Part shown: positions 6,893 to 21,618 of the stretch, one piece after another
Numbering within the stretch: the stretch's first letter is position 1
Layout of the letters: every line of letters begins with the position of its first letter
Virus record (IMG/VR): IMGVR_UViG_3300043395_000366
Coordinates: 1 to 41,189 of that record
Length of the DNA: 41,189 nucleotides
Source of the DNA: a virus
Direction: 5' to 3' (one strand)
Notes under the pieces: generated by a model
What the model saw: the letters and a program-made list of their open reading frames with translations, nothing else
Databases searched by the model: none
Told to the model about the DNA's origin: nothing
Made by a program: the position numbers and the translations under genes

Positions 6893-7900
6893 TCAACACT
6901 TTTTCCAGTCTCGGATTGCCAGTTTTAGGGCTAAGCCCTTGAACGTGGATTTATTTAGTAGATGCTCGATCTGCGAACCACTAAGTCCAGACAAAACAGC
7001 ATCATTGATATCTTTATAAGTCCAGCTTGTGTTCCACACTACCATCGTATATCCACGTTGAACAAATGACTCAACGCGCTTCACAACTTGTTTGTTGCGC
7101 GGCTGATTGTCGAACACAAGGACGACGTTCTCACCGTTCAAGCTATATAGCGCACGCTGAAAGTCCGTTCCACCAGCTGCAATAGAATTATCAAGAAACA
7201 TACTGTCGATCGGACCTTCCACAACGTATATAGTTTTGCCACGTTTTACGCGATCAAGACCATAAATCAACGGGTCGTCAGTGATTCTTACAGTAACATA
7301 GCGCAAGGATGAGTTACCCATGGCGCGTCCAGTAACGCCGGTGAGTAACCCATCCTCGCGTCGAAACGGAATAACCAAACGTTCGTCGGAAGTCAAACGA
7401 CCATCGTAGGCTGGATTCAACGTTTCGAGTTCTTTGAAATCACGCGCATAGTAGAGATCCTTCCAACGATCTTTTGGGATCTGTCGGGCTTTGACGTATT
7501 CTACTGCGCGGTGATGTGAAGGGAGTTGATCGAGACGCGAAAGCATCTCGTCAAGAATAATCGGAGGACGTTCAACTTCCGTCTTAGGAATAATGAACGT
7601 ATCCAATTCTGTATTTGCTGCTACACGATCCTTGTAGGATTCTAGTCTGTATGACTTGGCCAGACCAGGATCAACGAGATCAATAAGTTTACCAAGATTA
7701 GTGCCAACATCGCAATTATGACATTTGTAAATGAGCCCACCAGACTTTTCGAACAGGTAGCCTCTAGCCTTCAATTTGTTCTTTTGTGAGTCGCCACAGA
7801 AAGGACAGCGGAAATTATAGACTCGCTCAGACTTCCGCTTGAACAGCAGAAGCTTGTGCGAAATCATCTGTGCATATTTGTGATCAGTGATAATAGACAT
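6893..7900 (-). CDS. DNA primase, T4 gp61-like
   Basis: The 335-aa protein makes RNA primers for lagging-strand synthesis with the gp41 helicase. An N-terminal zinc ribbon is formed by Cys32, Cys35, Cys60 and Cys63 (CPFCGD and CHNC). A TOPRIM domain follows, with Glu228 in VVEGPIDSMFL and Asp264 in LVFDNQ as metal ligands. The ATG at 7900 gives an N-terminus of the length expected before the zinc ribbon. It lies only 6 nt after a consensus -10 box and has no Shine-Dalgarno sequence, so the mRNA is predicted to be leaderless. A hairpin follows the stop. Confidence 0.9.
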   Translation of the reverse strand: MSIITDHKYAQMISHKLLLFKRKSERVYNFRCPFCGDSQKNKLKARGYLFEKSGGLIYKCHNCDVGTNLGKLIDLVDPGLAKSYRLESYKDRVAANTELDTFIIPKTEVERPPIILDEMLSRLDQLPSHHRAVEYVKARQIPKDRWKDLYYARDFKELETLNPAYDGRLTSDERLVIPFRREDGLLTGVTGRAMGNSSLRYVTVRITDDPLIYGLDRVKRGKTIYVVEGPIDSMFLDNSIAAGGTDFQRALYSLNGENVVLVFDNQPRNKQVVKRVESFVQRGYTMVVWNTSWTYKDINDAVLSGLSGSQIEHLLNKSTFKGLALKLAIRDWKKC

Positions 7901-7906
7901 AGATTC

Positions 7907-7935
7907 ATTATAATAAGCTCAAGGAAGATTGTCAA
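7907..7935 (-). promoter_or_regulatory. Consensus sigma70-type promoter for primase
   Basis: On the minus strand the sequence reads TTGACA, 17 bp, TATAAT: a perfect match at both hexamers with ideal spacing. The -10 ends 6 nt before the primase ATG, so the predicted transcription start falls at or next to the start codon. Confidence 0.85.
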
Positions 7936-7940
7936 GACTT

Positions 7941-8300
7941 TTATTGACTTTCTGGGTTAGGCTGCTGGTTTTTGTAGTATTCTTTATAGGCTGCGATCAC
8001 TGAGTTCTGCTGTTCGATATACTTACGAAGTTCAGCCACGTTCATGCTCAGTGTTTGATAGCCCTGAGACGTGAGCGCAAAGAATACAACGTTTCCTTTG
8101 CCAGCTAACTCTTCAGCTTTTGCCGCATAGTTTTCTGGCGTGATAACAACCCATGTCAGATCATTCTGAACGATAGGCTGTGTAGGCGGTAGGATCAGTT
8201 CAGCCCTTTCGACTAGAACTGGTTTATCGAATACTTTAGTTGTTTCTGTGCAAGCTGTCAAGAACAATCCGCAGAACGAAGCAATAATAATCTTCTTCAC
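7941..8300 (-). CDS. Outer-membrane lipoprotein, probable o-spanin
   Basis: The 119-aa protein starts with a signal peptide ending in a lipobox (LTAC, Cys17) and is otherwise soluble with a helical C-terminus. It overlaps by 4 nt the end of a gene encoding a membrane-anchored coiled-coil protein. This is the arrangement of two-component spanins, which fuse inner and outer membranes at the end of phage lysis. The central DLTWVVITPEN segment resembles lipoproteins paired with Rz-like proteins in other large phages. The spanin assignment rests on architecture and is moderately sure. Confidence 0.6.
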   Translation of the reverse strand: MKKIIIASFCGLFLTACTETTKVFDKPVLVERAELILPPTQPIVQNDLTWVVITPENYAAKAEELAGKGNVVFFALTSQGYQTLSMNVAELRKYIEQQNSVIAAYKEYYKNQQPNPESQ

Positions 8301-8764
8301 TTTGCAGCCTCCTTCTTTGGAATCTGTCGATCAATGATGTTCTGGCAGATATTGTTTTTGGCTTTACCGCTGAGCTCATCAGGAGTGAGTGGAGCGCCAG
8401 TCACCAGCTCATTACAACGAAGCGCATCTCGTGTTCCGCGATTCACACGGATTTCAACGTCTGCTGGCTTTTTGGCTGCTGACATAGCAAGGTCGCGCTG
8501 CTGGAATTTACGATTAAGAGCATTGACATCGTTCTGTGCTTGCTGAGCTACCTTAGCGACTTCCGCATTGATAGCCTGCATCTTCTTCATGTCAGCCTGC
8601 TGCTGTTCCATGACCATCTTCTGTTGTGTGATCACGCCTTCCATGCGCTGCTGAACTTCAGCTGCTGCTTCTAGCTTGCCTTGTAATGCTTGGATGTAGA
8701 AGTATCCGCCCGAGATGACGGAGAATAGAATAGCTGCAATCGCAATCTTTATACCGAAGCCCAT
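8297..8764 (-). CDS. Rz-like i-spanin (N-terminal anchor plus coiled coil)
   Basis: The start is the ATG at 8764 (MGFGIKIAIAAILF), 4 nt after the upstream stop, with AAAGGG nearby; a longer open frame upstream lies inside the preceding gene. The 155-aa product has one N-terminal transmembrane helix (about residues 5-22) and a long Gln/Met/Lys-rich coiled coil. A C-terminal module with two cysteines (ALRCNEL and NNICQN) follows, with GAPLTPDE typical of Rz-type proteins. Together with the overlapping lipoprotein it should span the periplasm. Confidence 0.65.
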   Translation of the reverse strand: MGFGIKIAIAAILFSVISGGYFYIQALQGKLEAAAEVQQRMEGVITQQKMVMEQQQADMKKMQAINAEVAKVAQQAQNDVNALNRKFQQRDLAMSAAKKPADVEIRVNRGTRDALRCNELVTGAPLTPDELSGKAKNNICQNIIDRQIPKKEAAK

Positions 8765-8768
8765 TTTC

Positions 8769-9368
8769 TTACCCTTTGTGTTTGAAGTATTGGACTTGGC
8801 GTTCTCTTCTTTCTGCGCCCGCCCTCGAAGGATACGTTCCGAGATTTTTTCCTGACGCTTTGGAGACGAGTCGATACTTGCTTCCAACTTTGACAATACG
8901 TTCTTGGAGTCCACTATTTCTTTCAACAACTGCATTTGCGTGTTCGCGTTGAACACTTTCGCCTCCGTTCCCACCTGATCCATCACTACCATTCCCCATA
9001 GCTGAAGTGCGACTGACCGCTTTCACTCTCTTACCAATTGATTTATAATAGACAGTTGCTTCGTTTACGTTCTTACGGCGCATAACTGCTTTGAAGATCA
9101 TGGGCTGACCATATTTCTTCAATGGTCCTTTCATGCCAATACGAGGTTGGCGCTTGCTCCAATGAACATCTGATGTGCTTGTTGCTGGACCAGCATGATT
9201 GGCGGGACCGCCTTCGCCGTCTTCCTTGATAGTGCCTACTTTAGACTTCAGCCATGCTTTCTTTACGGCGATATCTAGAGTTTTACGAGCAGCAGGAGAC
9301 TTAGCTGGTTTTGATAGACGAGCTTTGTTGACTTTCCCTACAAGTCCTGGAGATAATTCCTTTAGCAT
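8769..9368 (-). CDS. Conserved phage virion-module protein, possible protease-processed precursor
   Basis: The basic 199-aa protein has two recognisable modules. The N-terminal module (GLVGKVNKARLSKPAKSPAA and a KKAWLKSK segment) and the C-terminal module (YRLVSKASGKNLGTYPSR, then RRERQVQYFKHKG) both recur in proteins of T4-like phages. A glycine/serine-rich linker lies at about residues 122-137. VNE-A at 101-104 matches the T4 prohead-protease preference (hydrophobic, any, Glu, then a small residue), like sites in the 1250-aa protein. Function is unknown. It overlaps the following conserved gene by 1 nt. Confidence 0.6.
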   Translation of the reverse strand: MLKELSPGLVGKVNKARLSKPAKSPAARKTLDIAVKKAWLKSKVGTIKEDGEGGPANHAGPATSTSDVHWSKRQPRIGMKGPLKKYGQPMIFKAVMRRKNVNEATVYYKSIGKRVKAVSRTSAMGNGSDGSGGNGGESVQREHANAVVERNSGLQERIVKVGSKYRLVSKASGKNLGTYPSRAGAERRERQVQYFKHKG

Positions 9369-9757
9369 TATATCTTCCTTAGAACATCTACGACTCGCAT
9401 GTCCATGACAATCTCGTTTGATCTTATAGTTTTGTTATCAGAACCTATGTTATCTACTACTTCAGGCCAGTAGTTCATTAGCATAAGGAACGGTTTCAGT
9501 ATATGCAGTTGGTCATATAGTTTGAACACAAGCATTCGCGTTAGAGCTTTTGGCTCAAACACATTATACAAAATCATCAAATGGTTTATGATCAATCTTT
9601 CTTTTAGCTCACCATGTTTTTCATATCTACTAAACAATCTACGAACATTTTTGATTCTTGTCAAATCATCCATAAACTCTTGTTCATCTACACACGGATT
9701 CATATAATGATGTGCAGCATAAAGAAAGAAATTCGAATCGTCCAATTTACCTTTCAT
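9368..9757 (-). CDS. Conserved T4-like phage protein of unknown function
   Basis: The 129-aa helical protein has the pattern FFLYAAHHYMNPCVDEQEF, then RYEKHGELKERLIINHLMILYN, then a KALTRMLVFK segment. I recognise this from conserved hypothetical proteins of marine T4-like phages. No catalytic motif or membrane segment is visible. It lies between a membrane protein and a virion-module protein, which suggests an assembly role, but this is inference. Confidence 0.6.
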   Translation of the reverse strand: MKGKLDDSNFFLYAAHHYMNPCVDEQEFMDDLTRIKNVRRLFSRYEKHGELKERLIINHLMILYNVFEPKALTRMLVFKLYDQLHILKPFLMLMNYWPEVVDNIGSDNKTIRSNEIVMDMRVVDVLRKI

Positions 9758-9758
9758 C

Positions 9759-10094
9759 TCACTTTTTTAGTTCTTTGGCAGCCTCTACGATATCTGTGTT
9801 AGCTGCTTCTGCTTTAATGAAAAAGCGCGCAGTCATAGACAGCACGCCCCATGCTAAAAATCCGATAACTGCACCAGCTGCGAGTAAATGTTCCATCGTA
9901 AGTTTTGTTTCAAGATACTCACATAAAACTGGAGCAAAGATAATGGCGGCGCCTGTGCAAACGCCGCCACGAATTGTTGCGTCAAGAATCGTTTTAGGTC
10001 TCATGAATGCAAACATAGTCAAACCGCCAAGCATACCACCAGCTGCTGAAGCTGATTTAGCTGCGACGTATGATCCTGCTGCTTCAAATGACAT
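9759..10094 (-). CDS. Small membrane protein, holin-like
   Basis: The 111-aa protein has three hydrophobic segments (about residues 12-30, 42-58 and 68-88) separated by short charged turns and a charged C-terminal tail (AAKELKK). This size and layout resemble phage holins. Its first codon overlaps the stop of the upstream fibre-type gene by 1 nt. A better holin candidate sits next to the endolysin at 31.6 kb, so this could be a second holin, an antiholin or a structural membrane protein. Confidence 0.45.
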   Translation of the reverse strand: MSFEAAGSYVAAKSASAAGGMLGGLTMFAFMRPKTILDATIRGGVCTGAAIIFAPVLCEYLETKLTMEHLLAAGAVIGFLAWGVLSMTARFFIKAEAANTDIVEAAKELKK

Positions 10095-10474
10095 TAGAAT
10101 GTATCCAGTGATACGCGCTTGATTGTTGTTGAGTTCACTGCAATATACAAATGAGTGTTCGTAAAACGAATTTCACCGACGCCCATGCCAACAGAAGTCG
10201 CGTTATTTGATCCTGGAGTAGAACCAAATGTAATCTTGACTGTGTTAGCAGTGAGCGTCTTTGTGATATTTACGTTTGACGCAAGCTGAACTCTGTTACC
10301 AGAAACAGTTACGTTTGCACTGAATACCGTATTCGACGGAACAGAACCGAAGAAGCTCTTTACTGTGATCTTCTTCGATACTGGTGTTCCGTTTGGATCG
10401 TCAACAATCATCAGCAGATCTGGAGCCGCTGTTGTCGTCAACGCTGTAAGTTGTGTTACCTTCTTGTCAGCCAT
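10094..10474 (-). CDS. Probable virion fibre or tail-associated protein
   Basis: The 126-aa protein begins with MADKKVTQLTAL and a DLLMIVDDPNGTPVSKKIT stretch. I know this N-terminal pattern from fibre- and tail-associated proteins of marine phages, where it probably attaches to the particle. The rest is beta-rich with repeated Asn, Thr and Val. It lies in the virion block next to two other structural-looking genes. Confidence 0.55.
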   Translation of the reverse strand: MADKKVTQLTALTTTAAPDLLMIVDDPNGTPVSKKITVKSFFGSVPSNTVFSANVTVSGNRVQLASNVNITKTLTANTVKITFGSTPGSNNATSVGMGVGEIRFTNTHLYIAVNSTTIKRVSLDTF

Positions 10475-14625: not shown

Positions 14626-17600
14626 TTAACAATCCCATGCTCTACGCGACCAGTAGTTAGCACTGGTCTTTTTGGTTAGATTACCCTGACCGCTTGAGCG
14701 AGCACAGTATGATCTCTTACGGGCAGGTTGATCCTTCTTGATACTCAGTTTCTTATCACCAAAGTTTACCTTCTTGATGTTTCCTGTTGATGGATCGCGA
14801 ACATAAACTTTAGACTTTTTGACGTCGCCTTTCATAGGCTTATTCAGTTGAACGTTACGTCCTTGATATATAGCTTCGTTCATCGCATCTTCTTGTGCTT
14901 CAAGTGCTTCCTGAACTTCTGGATGATGTTCAAACGAAGACTGAACTGTGATGCCATAGTCGCGAGCAAGCGGAGCAAGTTCAAATCCTGCAGCGAATGA
15001 TTCGTTTAGTTCGTTTGACTCACGAATACCACCAAGCGCCTTACGGATATCACTCAGATGTTTCTTAGAAAGATCCTGCTTAGCCTGATTAGCAAGAACG
15101 CGCTGATGACCAGCATCTGAATCAGACGGTGGCATCGTGTATGCTGGTTTATCTACAGCAAACGGAGCAGTTACAAACTCAGTTGTCTGTCCTGGCGTAG
15201 CAGCCGCATAGTTTCTACGAATAGCATCTGTTCCTACGAAACGATTTGATGGATCGTTCTTGTTTGAGCTTGTTGGCTCAGATCCAGTATATCCTTCGCT
15301 AGCTGCTCTTACTTTCTTAGGAAGCGCATCACGAAGTTCCTTGTTTGTTTGACCTGAATACGGAACTTTTCCAGTAGGATGCGGATGCGTCTTCTGAAGA
15401 GTGATATGCGGATGCGACGCTTCCATCTGAACAGCTGTTTTTTTATGTTCTTTACGATAAACAATCTTACCGTCAGGCAGCTTTACCTTTACCATCTTTA
15501 CGTCAACGCGACGATTAGCTTCGTTGGTTGGTTTTGGATGCCATGCATGAAAACTTTTGACGCGCTTCGTTCTCTGTGAAAGAGGAGTTGCACCATGAGT
15601 CGACATCTGCTCAGTAATCTTACTAGCCTGATTTGGCGTCATATACTTCTTAGGCTTTACATAAGACTTGATCGTTTTCTTTCCTGGTTCAATCTTTTGA
15701 ACAGAACCACCTTTAGCAAGGAAATCCTTCATAGCTGCTGCAGAGTCTTTTGCTAAGTCAGCTTTGAATGGAGTGAACTTACGATCAACGAATGACTTTT
15801 TCTTTCCATAGTTCAGATAAGCAACTGTAGAACGTTCTCCGTCCTTACGAGCTTTAGCCCAGTTAGCCTGACCTTCCTTTACTTCATGACCCTTGTCACT
15901 AATCTGATGCACAGTATATTTACCACCAACGCGAGTAATTTTATTACCACGATCTGCGTGTGCATCAGCTTTTGACTTATCCTTGAACACACGAGAGCTG
16001 TTCTTATACTTACCCTTATCGTCGTGATACTTTACAATGTATCCTTCAACCTGAGTTTCTTCTTTTGGAACACAGTTAGGAACCTTTCGACCATTCTTCA
16101 TCTTCATACCAACTGCTGTGTATCCCTTCCAGCATGCGCTCTTCAAACCGCCTGTTGGAGCTTTTACTTTTTCAGACAGATCCTTATCCATTTCAGCAGC
16201 CTTTCCGCCAGCAATGAATGAGTTGACGCGAGAAAATGCTTCGTTGATATCTTCGTTCTGTTCGTATCCACGAGCAAATACTTCAAAGATGATATCTACG
16301 TCAACACCAGACTTTTCAGCTTTATTGAGAAGCGCATATGCTTCTTTAGTTTGAACACGATAGCGAACACGTGAGTATGTCGCTGGATCTTGTGTCGTAA
16401 GATCAATCAACTTGTCGAGCAGATCAGCGAGCTTTGAACGCATTTCAGGTGACTGAAGCGCAGCCTTCTTTGATGAACGCAGCGCACGACGATACTTCTG
16501 AAGTTCGTCAGCATCTGAAAGACCAAGACGAAGAAGTAAATCTAGCTTCTGTGAAAGTGGGCGCGACTTATTAGGATCGGTAGGACGATCTTCATCTTTT
16601 GCTGCTTCTGCGATACGACGAGTTCCTGGCGGTTCATCAGAGTCTTGTGGATATGGGGCGTTGGTGCGATTACGACCAGTTCCCATATAGAACTCTTTGA
16701 ACTGTTTTCCACCAAGAGAGATCTTCTTACCCTGCTTTTCGATTCCGTGAGTAAGAACGTTCTTGAATGAAGCAAAAGATTTACCAGCCTGAATAGTCAT
16801 ATCGTGCTTGTCTGCTGGTAAACGAGTAGCAGCAAACTTATCAAGCATCTTGTTAGCATCAGCAACAGAAATTTTATGCTTAGACTTATCAGAGAAAACA
16901 ACTTCATGATTGCCACGAGACAAAAGAACTTTGCGTAGCTGATACATGATATTTGTATCGCCAGCATCTTGTGCGTCAACTGTTCCCTTACGACCTTCAT
17001 CAACAGAACGAGCGTAGTGTGCGAGCTTTCTGTTCAGATGCAAGTGACCGTGCTTCGGGTTTGGTGCTTCACGATCGTTCTTTGTTGGATCAATTTTCAG
17101 AGTATCCAGTTTGGTTGGATCGATGTTCAATGGCGAGTCATGTTTAGCGTCAGCCTTTGTCTTTTCCCAGTCAGAAACAGACATACCACGCTTTGCAGCT
17201 TGGATCTTATCCTGAGCTACGTCCTTCGCTGAACCTTCTTTTTCTTTTGCTTCAATTACAAGTGACTCTTTTACTTCACGAGCTTTCTTTGTATATTCCT
17301 GAGCCTGCTTACGAACGCGAGGCATCAAACGTGTAGCCAAACGACCAACGAGTGAGTTTAGGTTCTTACCGAAACGCTGCACGAGTGCTGTGTCTACTGC
17401 AATACGCTGTGAACGTGACAGTGAGCTATACTCAAGATTTTTTTTACCAGTTGCGCGCTTACGGAGAAGCATGATAGCAGCCTTACGTGCGCGCATCTTC
17501 AGACGCTGCTGTGCTGGCATCTGCTTTGCTTTGATTTGACGGAGACGAGCAAGACGCTTGCTCATCGACTTCATGCGCTGAGAAAGTTTCTGGCGCTGCT

Positions 17601-18378
17601 GGAATCCAAGCACCTTGGCTTCATTCATTTCGTTATTGTCGCTTTCTTCGCCGTCGACAATAATATCAAGCATCATGGCGTCTGAGTCGTCAAGATCAAG
17701 ATCATCTGCGCTCAGCGAATCGAAATGCTTAGTGATTTCACCATCAGACGGTAGATCAGAAAAGTCATCGTCCTTCATATCCGATTCAAAAATGAACTCG
17801 AGGAAACGTTCGTTGTGTCCGTATTCCATTGCGTCTTCTCCCAGTAATGCTTTGCGCACAGCAGCATACATGCTTTTTGCTTGTGCAGCTTTGAGTGTAT
17901 TTGGTGCGCCACGAAGGAACTCTGCGATCTTTTCGTTTTTAGCCAATGCGCGCATTTTACTTGCTGACATTCCAGATACGTCATCAGCGTCTGGATCACG
18001 TTCGCCAGCAGACTTGACTGTGATTTTCTCGAATGTATATTCTTTGCCATTATATGCGTTGAGCAACTTGGTGAACTCAGGAACACGATCCGAACCAGCG
18101 AACATCGTGACGTGAGTAAAACCTTCTTTCTGTAAGTCTTTTAGAATCTGAATGACGTTCTTAGAGTTTGACTTACGCACAATCGCTCCGAACGCTGCAC
18201 GAGCGAACGAGAGTTTCTTATCGTATGAAAGGGGATCTTTCTTTCCGACAGAATGGGAAAGATAAACGCGAGGTGTCGATCTATTCTGATGCGCGTATGC
18301 GACCAGCTTGTTGACCAACAGCTGGTGACCTGTGGTGGGCGGATTCATACGCCCGAATGTGAATACAACGCTCTTCAT
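14626..18378 (-). CDS. 1250-aa mosaic protein: N-terminal nucleotidyltransferase plus virion modules
   Basis: Residues 1-180 form a cytidylyltransferase/NMNAT-like domain: GRMNPPTTGH (9-18) is the HxGH-type loop, with Thr in place of the first His, and SGMSASKMR (135-143) is the C-terminal substrate motif. An acidic linker follows. A strongly basic helical domain (about 254-370) comes next, then several modules joined by charged linkers. One is a CWKGYTAVGMKMKNG segment with PNCVP (749-771). The C-terminal module (1170-1250) has VNFGDKKLSIKKDQPARK and ends YWSRRAWDC. I know these last modules from virion-associated proteins of marine T4-like phages. Linkers carry MNE-A, VIE-A, IAE-A, INE-A, LNE-S and MNE-A bonds resembling prohead-protease sites. 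It is probably processed and packaged. Confidence 0.65.
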   Translation of the reverse strand: MKSVVFTFGRMNPPTTGHQLLVNKLVAYAHQNRSTPRVYLSHSVGKKDPLSYDKKLSFARAAFGAIVRKSNSKNVIQILKDLQKEGFTHVTMFAGSDRVPEFTKLLNAYNGKEYTFEKITVKSAGERDPDADDVSGMSASKMRALAKNEKIAEFLRGAPNTLKAAQAKSMYAAVRKALLGEDAMEYGHNERFLEFIFESDMKDDDFSDLPSDGEITKHFDSLSADDLDLDDSDAMMLDIIVDGEESDNNEMNEAKVLGFQQRQKLSQRMKSMSKRLARLRQIKAKQMPAQQRLKMRARKAAIMLLRKRATGKKNLEYSSLSRSQRIAVDTALVQRFGKNLNSLVGRLATRLMPRVRKQAQEYTKKAREVKESLVIEAKEKEGSAKDVAQDKIQAAKRGMSVSDWEKTKADAKHDSPLNIDPTKLDTLKIDPTKNDREAPNPKHGHLHLNRKLAHYARSVDEGRKGTVDAQDAGDTNIMYQLRKVLLSRGNHEVVFSDKSKHKISVADANKMLDKFAATRLPADKHDMTIQAGKSFASFKNVLTHGIEKQGKKISLGGKQFKEFYMGTGRNRTNAPYPQDSDEPPGTRRIAEAAKDEDRPTDPNKSRPLSQKLDLLLRLGLSDADELQKYRRALRSSKKAALQSPEMRSKLADLLDKLIDLTTQDPATYSRVRYRVQTKEAYALLNKAEKSGVDVDIIFEVFARGYEQNEDINEAFSRVNSFIAGGKAAEMDKDLSEKVKAPTGGLKSACWKGYTAVGMKMKNGRKVPNCVPKEETQVEGYIVKYHDDKGKYKNSSRVFKDKSKADAHADRGNKITRVGGKYTVHQISDKGHEVKEGQANWAKARKDGERSTVAYLNYGKKKSFVDRKFTPFKADLAKDSAAAMKDFLAKGGSVQKIEPGKKTIKSYVKPKKYMTPNQASKITEQMSTHGATPLSQRTKRVKSFHAWHPKPTNEANRRVDVKMVKVKLPDGKIVYRKEHKKTAVQMEASHPHITLQKTHPHPTGKVPYSGQTNKELRDALPKKVRAASEGYTGSEPTSSNKNDPSNRFVGTDAIRRNYAAATPGQTTEFVTAPFAVDKPAYTMPPSDSDAGHQRVLANQAKQDLSKKHLSDIRKALGGIRESNELNESFAAGFELAPLARDYGITVQSSFEHHPEVQEALEAQEDAMNEAIYQGRNVQLNKPMKGDVKKSKVYVRDPSTGNIKKVNFGDKKLSIKKDQPARKRSYCARSSGQGNLTKKTSANYWSRRAWDC

Positions 18379-18453: not shown

Positions 18454-18461
18454 TATTTATA
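18454..18461 (-). promoter_or_regulatory. T4-type late promoter box TATAAATA
   Basis: This is an exact match to the T4 late promoter -10 consensus on the minus strand. It lies 75 nt upstream of the 1250-aa gene. The predicted start site is near 18448. Confidence 0.65.
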
Positions 18462-18506: not shown

Positions 18507-18653
18507 TTACGAAGCGCCATTGGCGCCTTTTGCTTTAGCAATGAGTTTGGCTACCCATGCTGGCTGAGTCAGGAAGTTCCATCCAACGATGAGTCCTGCT
18601 ACGAAACCGATAACCATTGGTGATGTTGCGATATTCCAGATACCTTCTACCAT
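18507..18653 (-). CDS. Small membrane protein (48 aa)
   Basis: The frame from the ATG at 18651-18653 to a TAA at 18507-18509 encodes 48 aa. A strong AAGGAG lies 8 nt upstream. The N-terminus is MVEGIWNIATSP. A single hydrophobic helix (about residues 12-27, ending VGW) follows, then a short basic tail (AKLIAKAKG). It could be a small holin-like or virion membrane protein. The opposing promoter at 18470 would transcribe its antisense. Confidence 0.6.
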   Translation of the reverse strand: MVEGIWNIATSPMVIGFVAGLIVGWNFLTQPAWVAKLIAKAKGANGAS

Positions 18654-18664
18654 ATGTTTCTCCT

Positions 18665-18928
18665 TTATGCTAGAAAATCATTGCCTCTATGAGATGTGCT
18701 CCAATCGCGATCATTACAGAACTTTTTCCAACCCTCGTAATCTTTATCTCTTATTTCCTGAACTAGATCATCGTATTTACTAATGAGTCGCCAAGTTGTC
18801 ATATTCTTAGAACTATGGTTGGTCCTACGAATTTGGTTTTCCAAAGTTTTCGCCATCTTAGCTAGTTTCTTTATATGCTTTTCACGATTGTATGTTTCTT
18901 CAACGATAAACTCTGAGAACTTTTTCAT
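18665..18928 (-). CDS. Small protein with T4-like capsid-targeting N-terminus (87 aa)
   Basis: I chose the ATG at 18928 because it overlaps the upstream stop as ATGA and has AAGGGG nearby. The product begins MKKFSEFIVEE, which aligns without gaps to the T4 internal-protein leader MKTYQEFIAEA. In T4 the prohead protease cuts after Glu10. The rest is helical and charged (HIKKLAKMAKTLENQI, then WKKFCNDRDW). By analogy it would be packaged in the capsid and injected. Mature function is unknown. Confidence 0.65.
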   Translation of the reverse strand: MKKFSEFIVEETYNREKHIKKLAKMAKTLENQIRRTNHSSKNMTTWRLISKYDDLVQEIRDKDYEGWKKFCNDRDWSTSHRGNDFLA

Positions 18929-20157
18929 CGTTCCCACCCCTTGATAATGTCTGGACTGAAATTGGCTTGACTGAATCCTAAACGATCAACCAGTTTTACT
19001 GCTCCACCAGTCAAGTGATCTACAGCAACATAACCTTCTGGTGATGTGACCTTCAAACCCTGTCGCGTGCGCAGGAACGTATTCATAGTTCCTGCTGAGT
19101 TCATCTTCGATATGATCATCATCTTAGCTTCGACTACTAGATTCATGAAGTCGAAAATAGACTTGAGCTGAACGAGCGGAGTCTTGATGATAGGTCCGAA
19201 CGACTGCATCTTCTTTTGCTTAACTGCATTTTTGCCAGCAGGCGTTTTCTTCTTATCTTCTTCTTTCTGATAGTAGTCATTCATGTAGTGTATAAAACCA
19301 GCAACATGAGCTGTAGTATTCGTGATCTTTTCACCAGCACGAACTTTAGAGTTATTATATGTCTTGACGCGAATCAGTAGCTCAGGATCATTCGAGAACG
19401 CATCGACTGCTTGTGCAGGAAGCTTCTGTAGAATAGTTCCAGCTAAATGTAAAATAGTATTGAAACGAGATGTTTCAGCAGCGGTGAATGTAGCTGTTCC
19501 GCTCATGTCCTTATATGTCGCATCGTCCATCCAGATAGTGCCTACTTGATTTAGCTTTTCGACGATGCCCTTACCGAATGATGCGCGCATACTTTCAAAC
19601 GAATCACCAGAGTATGTTGTATGCCAAACAACACCAACACTTGCTTTTGAAATGGATTTTCCTAATGCAGAATCTACAGGCACTGCATATACGATAGTAT
19701 TAGGTTGAAAGGTGTAATACTTCTCGTCGTCGATCACTTCTGTTTTGACGTCACCTTTCGTGAACATCAAGTCGCCTTGATATACACCAGATTTGATTCC
19801 GAGCTTCTTGAACTCACGCAAAGCGATGGTGAACTTAGCAGCTAGATCACCTTCTAGGTCTGCGTTGATATCTGCTTGTGTTTTGTATAGCTTAGGCGTC
19901 TTGTTAAAGATACCTTTCTTAGCAATAAAGAACTTCCCGTCGCGTGGATCAACACCAGCGAAGATAGCAGGAGCACCGTCCCATTTAACTGTAGCGGAAA
20001 CCTTAGCCTTCGAGTGACCAGCAAGCATATCACGAGTCGCCTTTAGGAATCTAAAGATCTGCTGTGCGCCATAAACGCCTTCATTGAAGATCAAGTCCTC
20101 AATGTGCTCCATGTGGAGATTCTTTTCTTCAGTAATAAATGTGGATAGCTTTTTCAT
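18925..20157 (-). CDS. Ligase-like nucleotidyltransferase with capsid-targeting N-terminus
   Basis: The 410-aa protein begins MKKLSTFITEE, again aligned to the T4 capsid-targeting leader with Ile8 and Glu10. The body has motifs of the covalent nucleotidyltransferase superfamily (DNA/RNA ligases and capping enzymes): KWDG at 58-61 (motif I, Lys58 as nucleophile), VYQGDLMF at 125-132, PEGYV at 373-377 (motif IV-like) and VKLVDR at 387-392 (motif V-like). I recognise the family from T4-like phages but not an assigned reaction. It overlaps the 87-aa gene by 4 nt and follows the nuclease-like gene with no gap. If packaged, it would act on nucleic acid ends or RNA soon after entry. Confidence 0.6.
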   Translation of the reverse strand: MKKLSTFITEEKNLHMEHIEDLIFNEGVYGAQQIFRFLKATRDMLAGHSKAKVSATVKWDGAPAIFAGVDPRDGKFFIAKKGIFNKTPKLYKTQADINADLEGDLAAKFTIALREFKKLGIKSGVYQGDLMFTKGDVKTEVIDDEKYYTFQPNTIVYAVPVDSALGKSISKASVGVVWHTTYSGDSFESMRASFGKGIVEKLNQVGTIWMDDATYKDMSGTATFTAAETSRFNTILHLAGTILQKLPAQAVDAFSNDPELLIRVKTYNNSKVRAGEKITNTTAHVAGFIHYMNDYYQKEEDKKKTPAGKNAVKQKKMQSFGPIIKTPLVQLKSIFDFMNLVVEAKMMIISKMNSAGTMNTFLRTRQGLKVTSPEGYVAVDHLTGGAVKLVDRLGFSQANFSPDIIKGWER

Positions 20158-20961
20158 TTATGCTTTCGTATCAAATCTAACAACAACTTCATTCAGTCTA
20201 ACTTCTTTGCCAGCGACTATTTCTTTACCGCGACCCTTTAGAGCTATACGAACGGAAGTTTTATTCGCTACAGTTTTGATGAGTTCCGAAGTAACAGGTT
20301 CTAGTTTTTTCTCAGATAAAATATGATCAGCTGAAAGTTTAGATGTTGCACCAAACGTAAACTTACCAGTGATAGCTTCTTCTATAATAGCCAATTTGAT
20401 ATTTTCGTATTCTTTCGAAACGACGGGTTTCTTACCAGACCCAAGAATGTTTTGAAGCAGTTCGTTGTATCTTTCTGTTTTACCGATAACAACGTCTGCT
20501 TGTGTTCTAGGCATCTTACCTAGATCACCATACTTACTATCTAGCTCAGCTAAAACTGACATGATAGACTTGATCTTTTTAGCATCGTATCCTTTCGATT
20601 TAGATACGTTGGCTAAAATGCCGTTTAGGAATTTGACTGTAGTTTTAACTCCACCAGACGAAAGCTGAATAGATCCACCGTGTTTCAATGAACATTTGAT
20701 CTTCTTTTTAGCACACGAAATGTATAAATCGGTTTTTGGTTCTACACCGCCGCCAGAAGTTTTTTCGATGTCGTTAATCTTACCATACTTTGCTTCTATC
20801 ATCTTGATGGCATTTTGAGCGTCTTTCTGAACAGATTTTTCAGACGCAGCATAGTTAGCCTTTGCAGTTTTTGCATTAGGATCGTTTGCGAATTTTTTAG
20901 GATTCGTCATTGCGACTAGATGGTAGATACACCACTCAAACTGAAGACCTTTGTTTGCCAT
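20158..20961 (-). CDS. Putative PD-(D/E)XK-type nuclease-like protein
   Basis: The 267-aa protein has a pattern that fits a restriction-endonuclease-like core: Glu9 in LQFEW, Asp78 in EPKTDLYI, and Ser91-Leu92-Lys93 in KCSLKHGGSIQLSSGG. The metal-binding E/Q of the ExK pair would be Ser91, a substitution that lowers confidence. The C-terminal third is charged and unfamiliar. It lies between the HAD phosphatase (1-nt overlap) and the ligase-like gene (no gap) and lacks the targeting leader of its neighbours. A role in cutting nucleic acid in the same pathway is inferred. Confidence 0.45.
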   Translation of the reverse strand: MANKGLQFEWCIYHLVAMTNPKKFANDPNAKTAKANYAASEKSVQKDAQNAIKMIEAKYGKINDIEKTSGGGVEPKTDLYISCAKKKIKCSLKHGGSIQLSSGGVKTTVKFLNGILANVSKSKGYDAKKIKSIMSVLAELDSKYGDLGKMPRTQADVVIGKTERYNELLQNILGSGKKPVVSKEYENIKLAIIEEAITGKFTFGATSKLSADHILSEKKLEPVTSELIKTVANKTSVRIALKGRGKEIVAGKEVRLNEVVVRFDTKA

Positions 20962-21569
20962 TAGCCGTTATACCTCGTGATACGTCCATCTTCGTGGATG
21001 AGGAATGCTTCGAAGCTGACTTTAGGAAACTCTGTGTGAAGCTCGATGAACTTATCTAGGTTTGCTTTTGCATCATCGAACATACGAACGATGCTGTAGT
21101 TTCCACCTTTCATCTGATCACGAATGATTTGCTTCTTAGCTTCTGCGCCAGGAGCTTTGATATTGCCAGCGCGATAGATATGAACTTGACCTGTATCGAA
21201 TCCATACTTGCGGAATGTATCAAGGAACAGATGCTTGTCGTCTAGATCAGCACGAGCCGTTACAACGATGATACGCTTGTTAGGATGAGCGCGAAAACGA
21301 TTGATCATTTTCTTCGCAGTTTTGAATACAGTTTGAATTGGCTTTGCTGTGTCAGCGAATACCTTAGCTGAACGGAACTGAGCAAAGTCAAACTCTTCTC
21401 CTGCCTTCAGCTTGTAGACATTGAATTCGGCGGGGGAAAGTTCGCCGACCCTCTTTCCCCCTTTAGTGACATACACCTTTGTAGTCGTGTGGAACAGCGT
21501 ATCGTCGATATCGAAAATCGACAAGCTACCACTGACTTCTTCGGCGATATATTCTTTGAACTTTAGCAT
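20961..21569 (-). CDS. HAD-superfamily phosphatase with capsid-targeting N-terminus
   Basis: Catalytic motif I is FDIDDTLF with nucleophile Asp20 and Asp22, motif II is VVTAR (Thr104), and motif IV is FDDAKAN (Asp165 and Asp166). These define an active HAD hydrolase; T4 Pnkp uses the same fold as a 3-prime phosphatase. The N-terminus MLKFKEYIAEE aligns with the T4 internal-protein leader MKTYQEFIAEA, with Ile8-x-Glu10 in register. A late box (TATAAATA) ends 7 nt before the ATG, and a terminator lies just beyond. It is first in the packaged-enzyme operon. The substrate is unknown; nucleic acid 3-prime ends or a nucleotide are possible. Confidence 0.75.
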   Translation of the reverse strand: MLKFKEYIAEEVSGSLSIFDIDDTLFHTTTKVYVTKGGKRVGELSPAEFNVYKLKAGEEFDFAQFRSAKVFADTAKPIQTVFKTAKKMINRFRAHPNKRIIVVTARADLDDKHLFLDTFRKYGFDTGQVHIYRAGNIKAPGAEAKKQIIRDQMKGGNYSIVRMFDDAKANLDKFIELHTEFPKVSFEAFLIHEDGRITRYNG

Positions 21570-21576
21570 CTTAGCC

Positions 21577-21584
21577 TATTTATA
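21577..21584 (-). promoter_or_regulatory. T4-type late promoter box TATAAATA
   Basis: This exact TATAAATA on the minus strand is placed after the terminator of the preceding unit. Its last base is 7 nt from the HAD ATG, so the predicted transcript has a leader of only about 2 nt. Confidence 0.7.
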
Positions 21585-21593
21585 AAATGAAAA

Positions 21594-21618
21594 GGGGAGC
21601 GGCACCACACCGCTCCCC
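21594..21618 (-). terminator. Rho-independent terminator
   Basis: On the minus strand a 9-bp GC-rich stem (GGGGAGCGG with CCGCTCCCC, 7-nt loop) is followed by TTTTCATTTTAT. It ends the lipoprotein transcript and isolates the HAD operon. Confidence 0.85.

Follow-up and report, generated by a model that had tools for sequence, protein, structure and literature searches.

The stretch of DNA analysed here (the window) comprises positions 1 to 41,189 (41 kb) of the IMG/VR virus record IMGVR_UViG_3300043395_000366. Its source is a T4-like relative of the Kyanoviridae, and it encodes a gp43-type polymerase, a gp41-like helicase, a gp61-like primase and NrdA/ribonucleotide reductase. The Kyanoviridae gene order gp41, DUF6267, cytidyltransferase, gp61 and nrdA is kept in the window and is the same in S-SM1 and in three other loci (L002, L004 and L005). 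On the minus strand, the genes for a HAD-family protein, a nuclease-like protein, a DUF6267 protein and a basic protein of 87 aa follow one another, and all of these except the nuclease-like protein carry an N-terminal leader. As the ends of the genes overlap or abut, the four are regarded as one operon. Beyond the 87-aa gene, in the 3' direction, the locus continues with a small ORF that resembles a membrane-protein gene, another late promoter and the gene for a protein of 1250 aa. The features of the locus are the following:

21594..21618, minus strand: hairpin resembling a terminator, immediately 5' of the operon (11-pair stem with 8 G-C pairs, T-rich tail)
21577..21584, minus strand: T4-type late promoter TATAAATA, separated by 7 nt from the start codon of the HAD gene
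20961..21569, minus strand: HAD-family phosphatase, 202 aa, with leader (ORF, HAD motifs)
21537..21569, minus strand: capsid-targeting leader MLKFKEYIAEE of the HAD protein (alignment with T4 ipII/ipIII)
20158..20961, minus strand: nuclease-like protein, 267 aa, without leader (EPKTD...CSLK signature)
18925..20157, minus strand: DUF6267 ligase-like nucleotidyltransferase, 410 aa, with leader (KWDG, QGDL, PEGYV and KLVDR motifs)
20125..20157, minus strand: capsid-targeting leader MKKLSTFITEE of DUF6267 (alignment, conservation)
18665..18928, minus strand: basic protein, 87 aa, with leader (ORF)
18896..18928, minus strand: capsid-targeting leader MKKFSEFIVEE of the 87-aa protein (alignment)
18454..18461, minus strand: T4-type late promoter TATAAATA, upstream of the NMNAT-like ATG by 83 nt, measured from start to start
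14626..18378, minus strand: 1250-aa protein with an NMNAT/cytidylyltransferase-like domain (residues 1-185) and a basic patchwork of small modules
17785..17805, minus strand: internal leader-like motif F192-LEFIF-E198 in the 1250-aa protein, kept in close relatives

The true start of the 87-aa protein is the ATG at 18928; the GTG at 18937 given in the ORF list adds MGT. Its net charge after the putative cut at E10 is +5. A near-DNA search of a phage collection yielded no match to the window, and neither did PADLOC and NCBIfam searches.

N-terminal leaders and the T4 capsid-targeting sequence

The N-termini encoded by three of these four genes follow the pattern M-x-x-[F/L]-x-x-[F/Y]-I-x-E. The leaders MLKFKEYIAEE, MKKLSTFITEE and MKKFSEFIVEE could be aligned without gaps to MKTYQEFIAEA, taken from ipII and ipIII of T4 record NC_000866, with I8-x-E10 in register. 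The preliminary description of three such leaders in one operon was borne out. Mutagenesis of the T4 leader has shown that residues 4 and 7 govern targeting while residues 8 and 10 govern processing (reviewed in PMC9026906). The positions that are fixed in the window leaders are exactly these targeting (4, 7) and cleavage (8, 10) positions.

The strict motif is matched in 64 of the 80 IMG/VR loci with DUF6267, and most of the remaining loci have near variants such as MKFSTFLTEQ and MLTLKQHLVEE. The anchors of the leaders are kept and the other positions vary: when unfiltered alignments were used, E10 was at least 90 % conserved in DUF6267, and F4, I8 and E10 were at least 90 % conserved in the HAD proteins. 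The regex-selected set gives entropy values with a bias at the anchor positions, and these values were excluded from the evidence. Across 110 related IMG/VR loci, 115 distinct coding-strand proteins start with the motif, versus 1 to 6 for motifs with scrambled or altered anchors. The one other ORF start in the window that fits the regex is that of a 52-aa antisense GTG ORF, and one in 900 internal Met residues of the S-CREM2 proteome begins a match. The 154.7-kb relative G001, whose DUF6267 shares just 32 % identity with the window protein, contains only two matches, the HAD protein and DUF6267, both of which are at this locus. Four of the five matches in the complete phage C48C1 (156 kb) are located within one stretch of 6.6 kb. 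Residues 1-11 of the HAD protein (its leader) and residues 1-16 of DUF6267 (leader included) have pLDDT values below 50 in the predicted models, in which the leaders are disordered.

The late promoter TATAAATA is present three times in the window, two of the copies being located at the starts of the HAD-operon and NMNAT-like transcription units. Its spacing to the HAD gene is conserved in relatives (15-17 nt, start to start), and that to the NMNAT-like gene is 71-86 nt in many relatives and 45-48 nt in others. The related loci carry 138 distinct copies on the coding strand versus 6 on the other, and 58 of the 138 stand directly before leader or NMNAT genes. Late expression of the leader genes is indicated by these promoter sequences. 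Of the T4-type head machinery, gp21 and gp23 are absent from the window, a 41-kb fragment; all six long relatives encode a gp21-type protease as well as gp23, and gp23 N-termini carry L-x-E sites (FLTE, LLGE and LLQE).

Proteins with the leader have been detected in virions of cultured relatives. Six of the 218 proteins of S-CREM2 fit the strict motif, and five of these six are in the published virion list (PMC10665884, Table 3), which comprises 52 of the 218 proteins overall (Fisher p = 0.0032; p = 0.00024 with 24 known structural proteins removed). The five are the SAM hydrolase gp6, gp13, the kinase gp14, gp136 and the cytidylyltransferase gp154, while in the Cas9-like gp12, which is listed as well, the motif lies close to the N-terminus (LRFASFMAEA). 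This association was first noticed in the N-termini and the statistics were applied afterwards, using a motif that had been fixed earlier from other phages. The authors of the list warn that abundant proteins may carry over in CsCl preparations (PMC10665884). The S-SM1 virion protein T4-GC190 (PMC3037559) begins with MKKFSAFLNEA, and the cytidylyltransferase detected in the S-SZBM1 virion begins with MRFRQFIIEA. A leaderless DUF6267 adjoins the latter in the S-SZBM1 genome and is absent from the virion MS list of 30 proteins, as are the leader ORFs 191 and 192; with one of three leader ORFs detected in a shallow proteome, from a scan of all but the last 9 kb of the genome, this phage adds no weight. 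NMNAT-like proteins have repeatedly been detected as nonstructural virion proteins of cyanophages (PMC9602691, PMC10665884, PMC3037559). The leader goes unmentioned in the available passages of the cyanophage proteomics papers.

The T4 mutational map, the conservation of the anchors, the late promoters and the tagged proteins in virions of relatives together support the earlier proposal that the leaders behave as T4-type capsid-targeting sequences (CTS). Homology provides good support for the targeting of these enzymes to the capsid, the probability of which is estimated at roughly 0.8. The locus would then be a late-expressed internal-head-protein (capsid cargo) locus. The 10-residue leader would bind the assembling scaffold core, by which the tagged enzymes would be built into the prohead. 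A gp21-type protease would cut after Glu10 and free the mature basic enzymes among the DNA, with which they would leave the head at infection. We infer such packaging, cleavage and ejection for the window phage, the ejection of the cargo because of the T4 precedent, and this phage probably delivers preformed enzymes to the next cell.

A portable leader and its exceptions

The leader also starts NMNAT-like proteins, a SAM hydrolase, a P-loop (zeta-toxin-like) kinase and several proteins of no named family in relatives, and the kinase at the DUF6267 locus of S-CRM01 begins with MISFDQFLSEK. Carried by several different cargos, it is a portable module among T4-like freshwater and marine phages. 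As it is a general cargo tag, the tagged proteins need not share one pathway. Co-conservation of the leader in homologues, which had been put forward as a check, was seen in part. It extends to the 64 DUF6267 loci mentioned above and to the DIDDTLF-type HAD proteins near DUF6267, all of which have it (13 of 13 loci), but not to the HAD homologue of locus L108, which is without leader, nor to DUF6267 of the Kyanoviridae examined, which is leaderless except in C48C1. The HAD gene is present in a minority of the loci (14 of 39). Because of this and of the leaderless DUF6267 in most Kyanoviridae examined, the 'kit' is not obligate. Judged from gene order, the trio of nuclease-like, DUF6267 and cytidylyltransferase genes is old, since the nuclease-like homologue SSM1_188 (E 3e-35) likewise precedes DUF6267 and the cytidylyltransferase in S-SM1, and the leader moves between the members of this trio. 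A nuclease-like homologue precedes DUF6267 in G001 as well.

The NMNAT-like protein of the window clade has no N-terminal leader; instead, F-x-x-F-[IV]-x-E is present right after the NMNAT-like domain. All 10 aligned sequences from close relatives, the window included, have this internal motif (residues 192-198), which is the one leader-like site conserved among the I/L-x-E sites of the 1250-aa protein. Pieces of this protein resemble, in a by-eye reading, separate leader-bearing proteins of C48C1 and other loci, suggesting a fusion of cargos. That it would be cleaved at the internal leader-like site is a guess. Cutting of a 1250-aa polyprotein at many I/L-x-E sites was rejected, as 8 such sites were seen versus 6.0 expected after residue 185.

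Possible functions of the cargo enzymes

In DUF6267, K58-W-D-G61, Q127-G-D129, E374-G-x-V377 and K388 are invariant in 46 sequences. The KWDG, QGDL, PEGYV and KLVDR motifs correspond to motifs I (KxDG), III, IV (EGxV) and V of ligase/capping nucleotidyltransferases, present in this order. The DUF6267 model gave no Foldseek match at E <= 0.001. A VIA structure comparison yielded mostly RNA/DNA ligases at modest Z values of 5-6.5, among them T4 Rnl2 (Z 6.5, rmsd 4.3, 155 residues), and an unrelated entry reached 6.9. No literature on DUF6267 was found. In the HAD protein, DxDxT (DIDDT), T104, K145 and DD165-166 are invariant in 22 sequences, and T4 PNKP and Pnkp1 are among the best structural matches of its model (Z about 11, rmsd 3.0, 122-133 residues), other HAD families scoring equally. 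Sequence searches of solved structures with the DUF6267 and HAD profiles found nothing, and a search with the NMNAT-like domain found weak matches to designed proteins only. The cargo identities of the preliminary description are supported in part: the motifs of DUF6267 and the modelled fold of the HAD protein are consistent with a ligase-superfamily nucleotidyltransferase and a PNKP-phosphatase-like fold, respectively, while the Foldseek result was not significant and the HAD comparison does not single out PNKP. The EPKTD...CSLK signature of the 267-aa protein suggests a PD-(D/E)XK-type nuclease.

Nucleic-acid end processing is a tentative best guess for the chemistry of the cargo. The HAD protein would act as a 3'-phosphatase and DUF6267 as a nick- or RNA-sealing ligase, and the processing of ends would shield nucleic acid of the phage or the host against host nucleases that act early. 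The 'nucleic-acid repair kit' is a plausible hypothesis. A head-packed set for repair and nucleotide metabolism, under one portable 10-residue code, by which nuclease damage would be repaired before phage gene expression, is conceivable, albeit rather unlikely. Such a set would consist of the ligase, the end-healing phosphatase and the NMNAT-like enzyme, the latter as part of a protease-cleaved polyprotein.

The cargo might alternatively act on NAD+, in that the NMNAT-like protein rebuilds NAD+ and the others process NMN/NAD derivatives, thus countering NAD-depleting host defences. This possibility, which is also on the unlikely side, fits the repeated detection of NMNAT-like proteins in the cyanophage virions cited above and the linkage of the nuclease-like, DUF6267 and NMNAT-like genes in S-SM1 too, but DUF6267 resembles RNA/DNA ligases in its model, PNKP is among the best structural matches of the HAD protein, and NAD synthesis by the NMNAT-like family is putative. 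All mature cargos are basic (+5, +7 and +11), like the T4 internal proteins, and loss of IPIII in T4 slows head assembly (PMC9026906), as would be expected if the tagged proteins served chiefly as scaffold/core or genome-condensing parts in head assembly, had enzyme folds that are vestigial and were not delivered for action in the cell. The invariance of the catalytic residues in the DUF6267 and HAD sequences makes this improbable, as does the variation of the cargos between relatives with the leader alone in common, which is expected for effectors. T4 Ip1-3 inhibit GmrSD Type IV restriction enzymes (PMC12373910), and the tagged proteins could be anti-restriction decoys or inhibitors of this kind that use enzyme-like folds for binding; this is quite improbable, as intact and invariant catalytic motifs argue for catalysis whereas Ip1-3 are specific inhibitors. 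That the motif, which is short and has four constrained positions, is a coincidental common N-terminal pattern without targeting role has a negligible probability: chance origin of the leaders is ruled out by the scrambled-motif controls and by whole-genome scans such as that of G001, and the virion enrichment in S-CREM2 and the fit of the anchors to T4 mutagenesis also argue against it.

Comparison with known systems

The available literature yielded no description of a large environmental phage group in which a T4-type CTS is portable and tags enzymes, nor, the T4 review aside, of any link between CTS and cyanophages. With capsid targeting as the preferred reading, the enzymes in cyanophage virions, suspected of carry-over by the authors, would become a predictable class marked by a short sequence code. 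As this code can be read from any genome, the injected enzymes of uncultured phages would be predictable, and the long-standing question of what T4-like phages inject besides DNA would become directly testable.

The leaders resemble the CTS of T4 IPI, IPII and IPIII in being N-terminal, in their length of 10 residues, in the hydrophobic or aromatic residues at positions 4, 7 and 8 and in Glu10. The mature proteins are, given the predicted cut, basic like the T4 internal proteins, a T4 late promoter is present and T4-type gp21 and gp23 are encoded in relatives. The window cargos have enzyme folds (ligase-like, HAD and NMNAT-like), whereas those of T4 are small restriction inhibitors; no similarity is recognised beyond the leader, of which a copy is also present inside a long protein in the window.

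The cyanomyovirus T4-GC190 proteins of S-SM1, S-CREM2 and S-SZBM1 carry the same leader, in a related gene neighbourhood in S-SM1 and S-SZBM1; in the window, the domain homologous to them forms the N-terminal part of the 1250-aa protein. In contrast to T4-GC190, the window clade has the leader on its ligase-like, HAD and 87-aa proteins, and its NMNAT-like protein has an internal copy instead of an N-terminal one.

The pairing of a HAD phosphatase fold with a putative nucleotidyltransferase of the ligase superfamily is reminiscent of T4 Pnkp with Rnl1/Rnl2 and of bacterial Pnkp1/Rnl/Hen1, and the best structural matches of the modelled window proteins include the T4 PNKP phosphatase, Pnkp1 and T4 Rnl2. 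Unlike these systems, the window proteins have no kinase domain, show very low sequence identity and carry a head-targeting leader.

The ejection proteins of the giant phages phiKZ and SPN3US are likewise carried in the head and some are cut by a gp21-like protease (PMC5694885, PMC7411985). Head carriage is known for those proteins and would be expected for the window proteins, which differ from them in having a short CTS of the T4 type, at a T4-type locus of smaller phages.

Leader positions in the NMNAT-like protein and its counterparts

14626-18378, minus strand: 1250-aa protein with an N-terminal NMNAT-like domain
17785-17805, minus strand: leader-like motif FLEFIFE within this protein
14626-14870, minus strand: C-terminal module KKSKVYVRDPSTGNIKKVNFGDKKLSIKKDQPARKRSYCARSSGQ...YWSRRAWDC (phrog_7595)
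L001 (phage C48C1), 10688-12031: cytidyltransferase

The motif FLEFIFE lies directly C-terminal of the NMNAT-like domain and is conserved in all ten of the close relatives in the aligned set, while the counterparts of the 1250-aa protein in other relatives carry the leader at the N-terminus instead of internally. The open reading frame of the C48C1 cytidyltransferase continues upstream as far as VIKNFSQYLLEEEREVYFTFGRMNPPT, and its deposited start seems to have been placed too late. Upon starting at VIKNFSQYLLEEEREVYFTFGRMNPPT, the protein would gain both a leader and the beginning of the nucleotidyltransferase domain. In many phages, the proteins at this locus contain shuffled modules, namely the phrog_7595 module and a CW...VPNC peptide.

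Promoters and small genes around the leader operon

21569-21584, minus strand: late promoter TATAAATA to the HAD start codon
18470-18498, plus strand: perfect sigma-70 promoter, TTGACA-N17-TATAAT
18507-18653, minus strand: 48-aa ORF that has a good ribosome-binding site and contains a hydrophobic segment
23446-23524, minus strand: tRNA-Met (CAT) gene

The HAD phosphatase start codon is located only 7 nt past the end of the late promoter, a spacing also observed in about ten relatives, and the transcript may have little or no 5' untranslated region. The sigma-70 promoter, between the 87-aa and NMNAT-like genes, is directed antisense into the leader operon. The 48-aa ORF has the 87-aa gene on one side and the second late promoter on the other. 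The tRNA gene and an HNH-like ORF encoded on the other strand partially overlap at the end of the ORF.

A leader-like sequence in S-CREM2 gp12

L122 (cyanophage S-CREM2), 7704-10313: gp12, annotated as Cas9-like

Close to its N-terminus, gp12 contains the leader-like sequence LRFASFMAEA. The protein was detected in virions by the S-CREM2 authors and is possibly a packaged nuclease.
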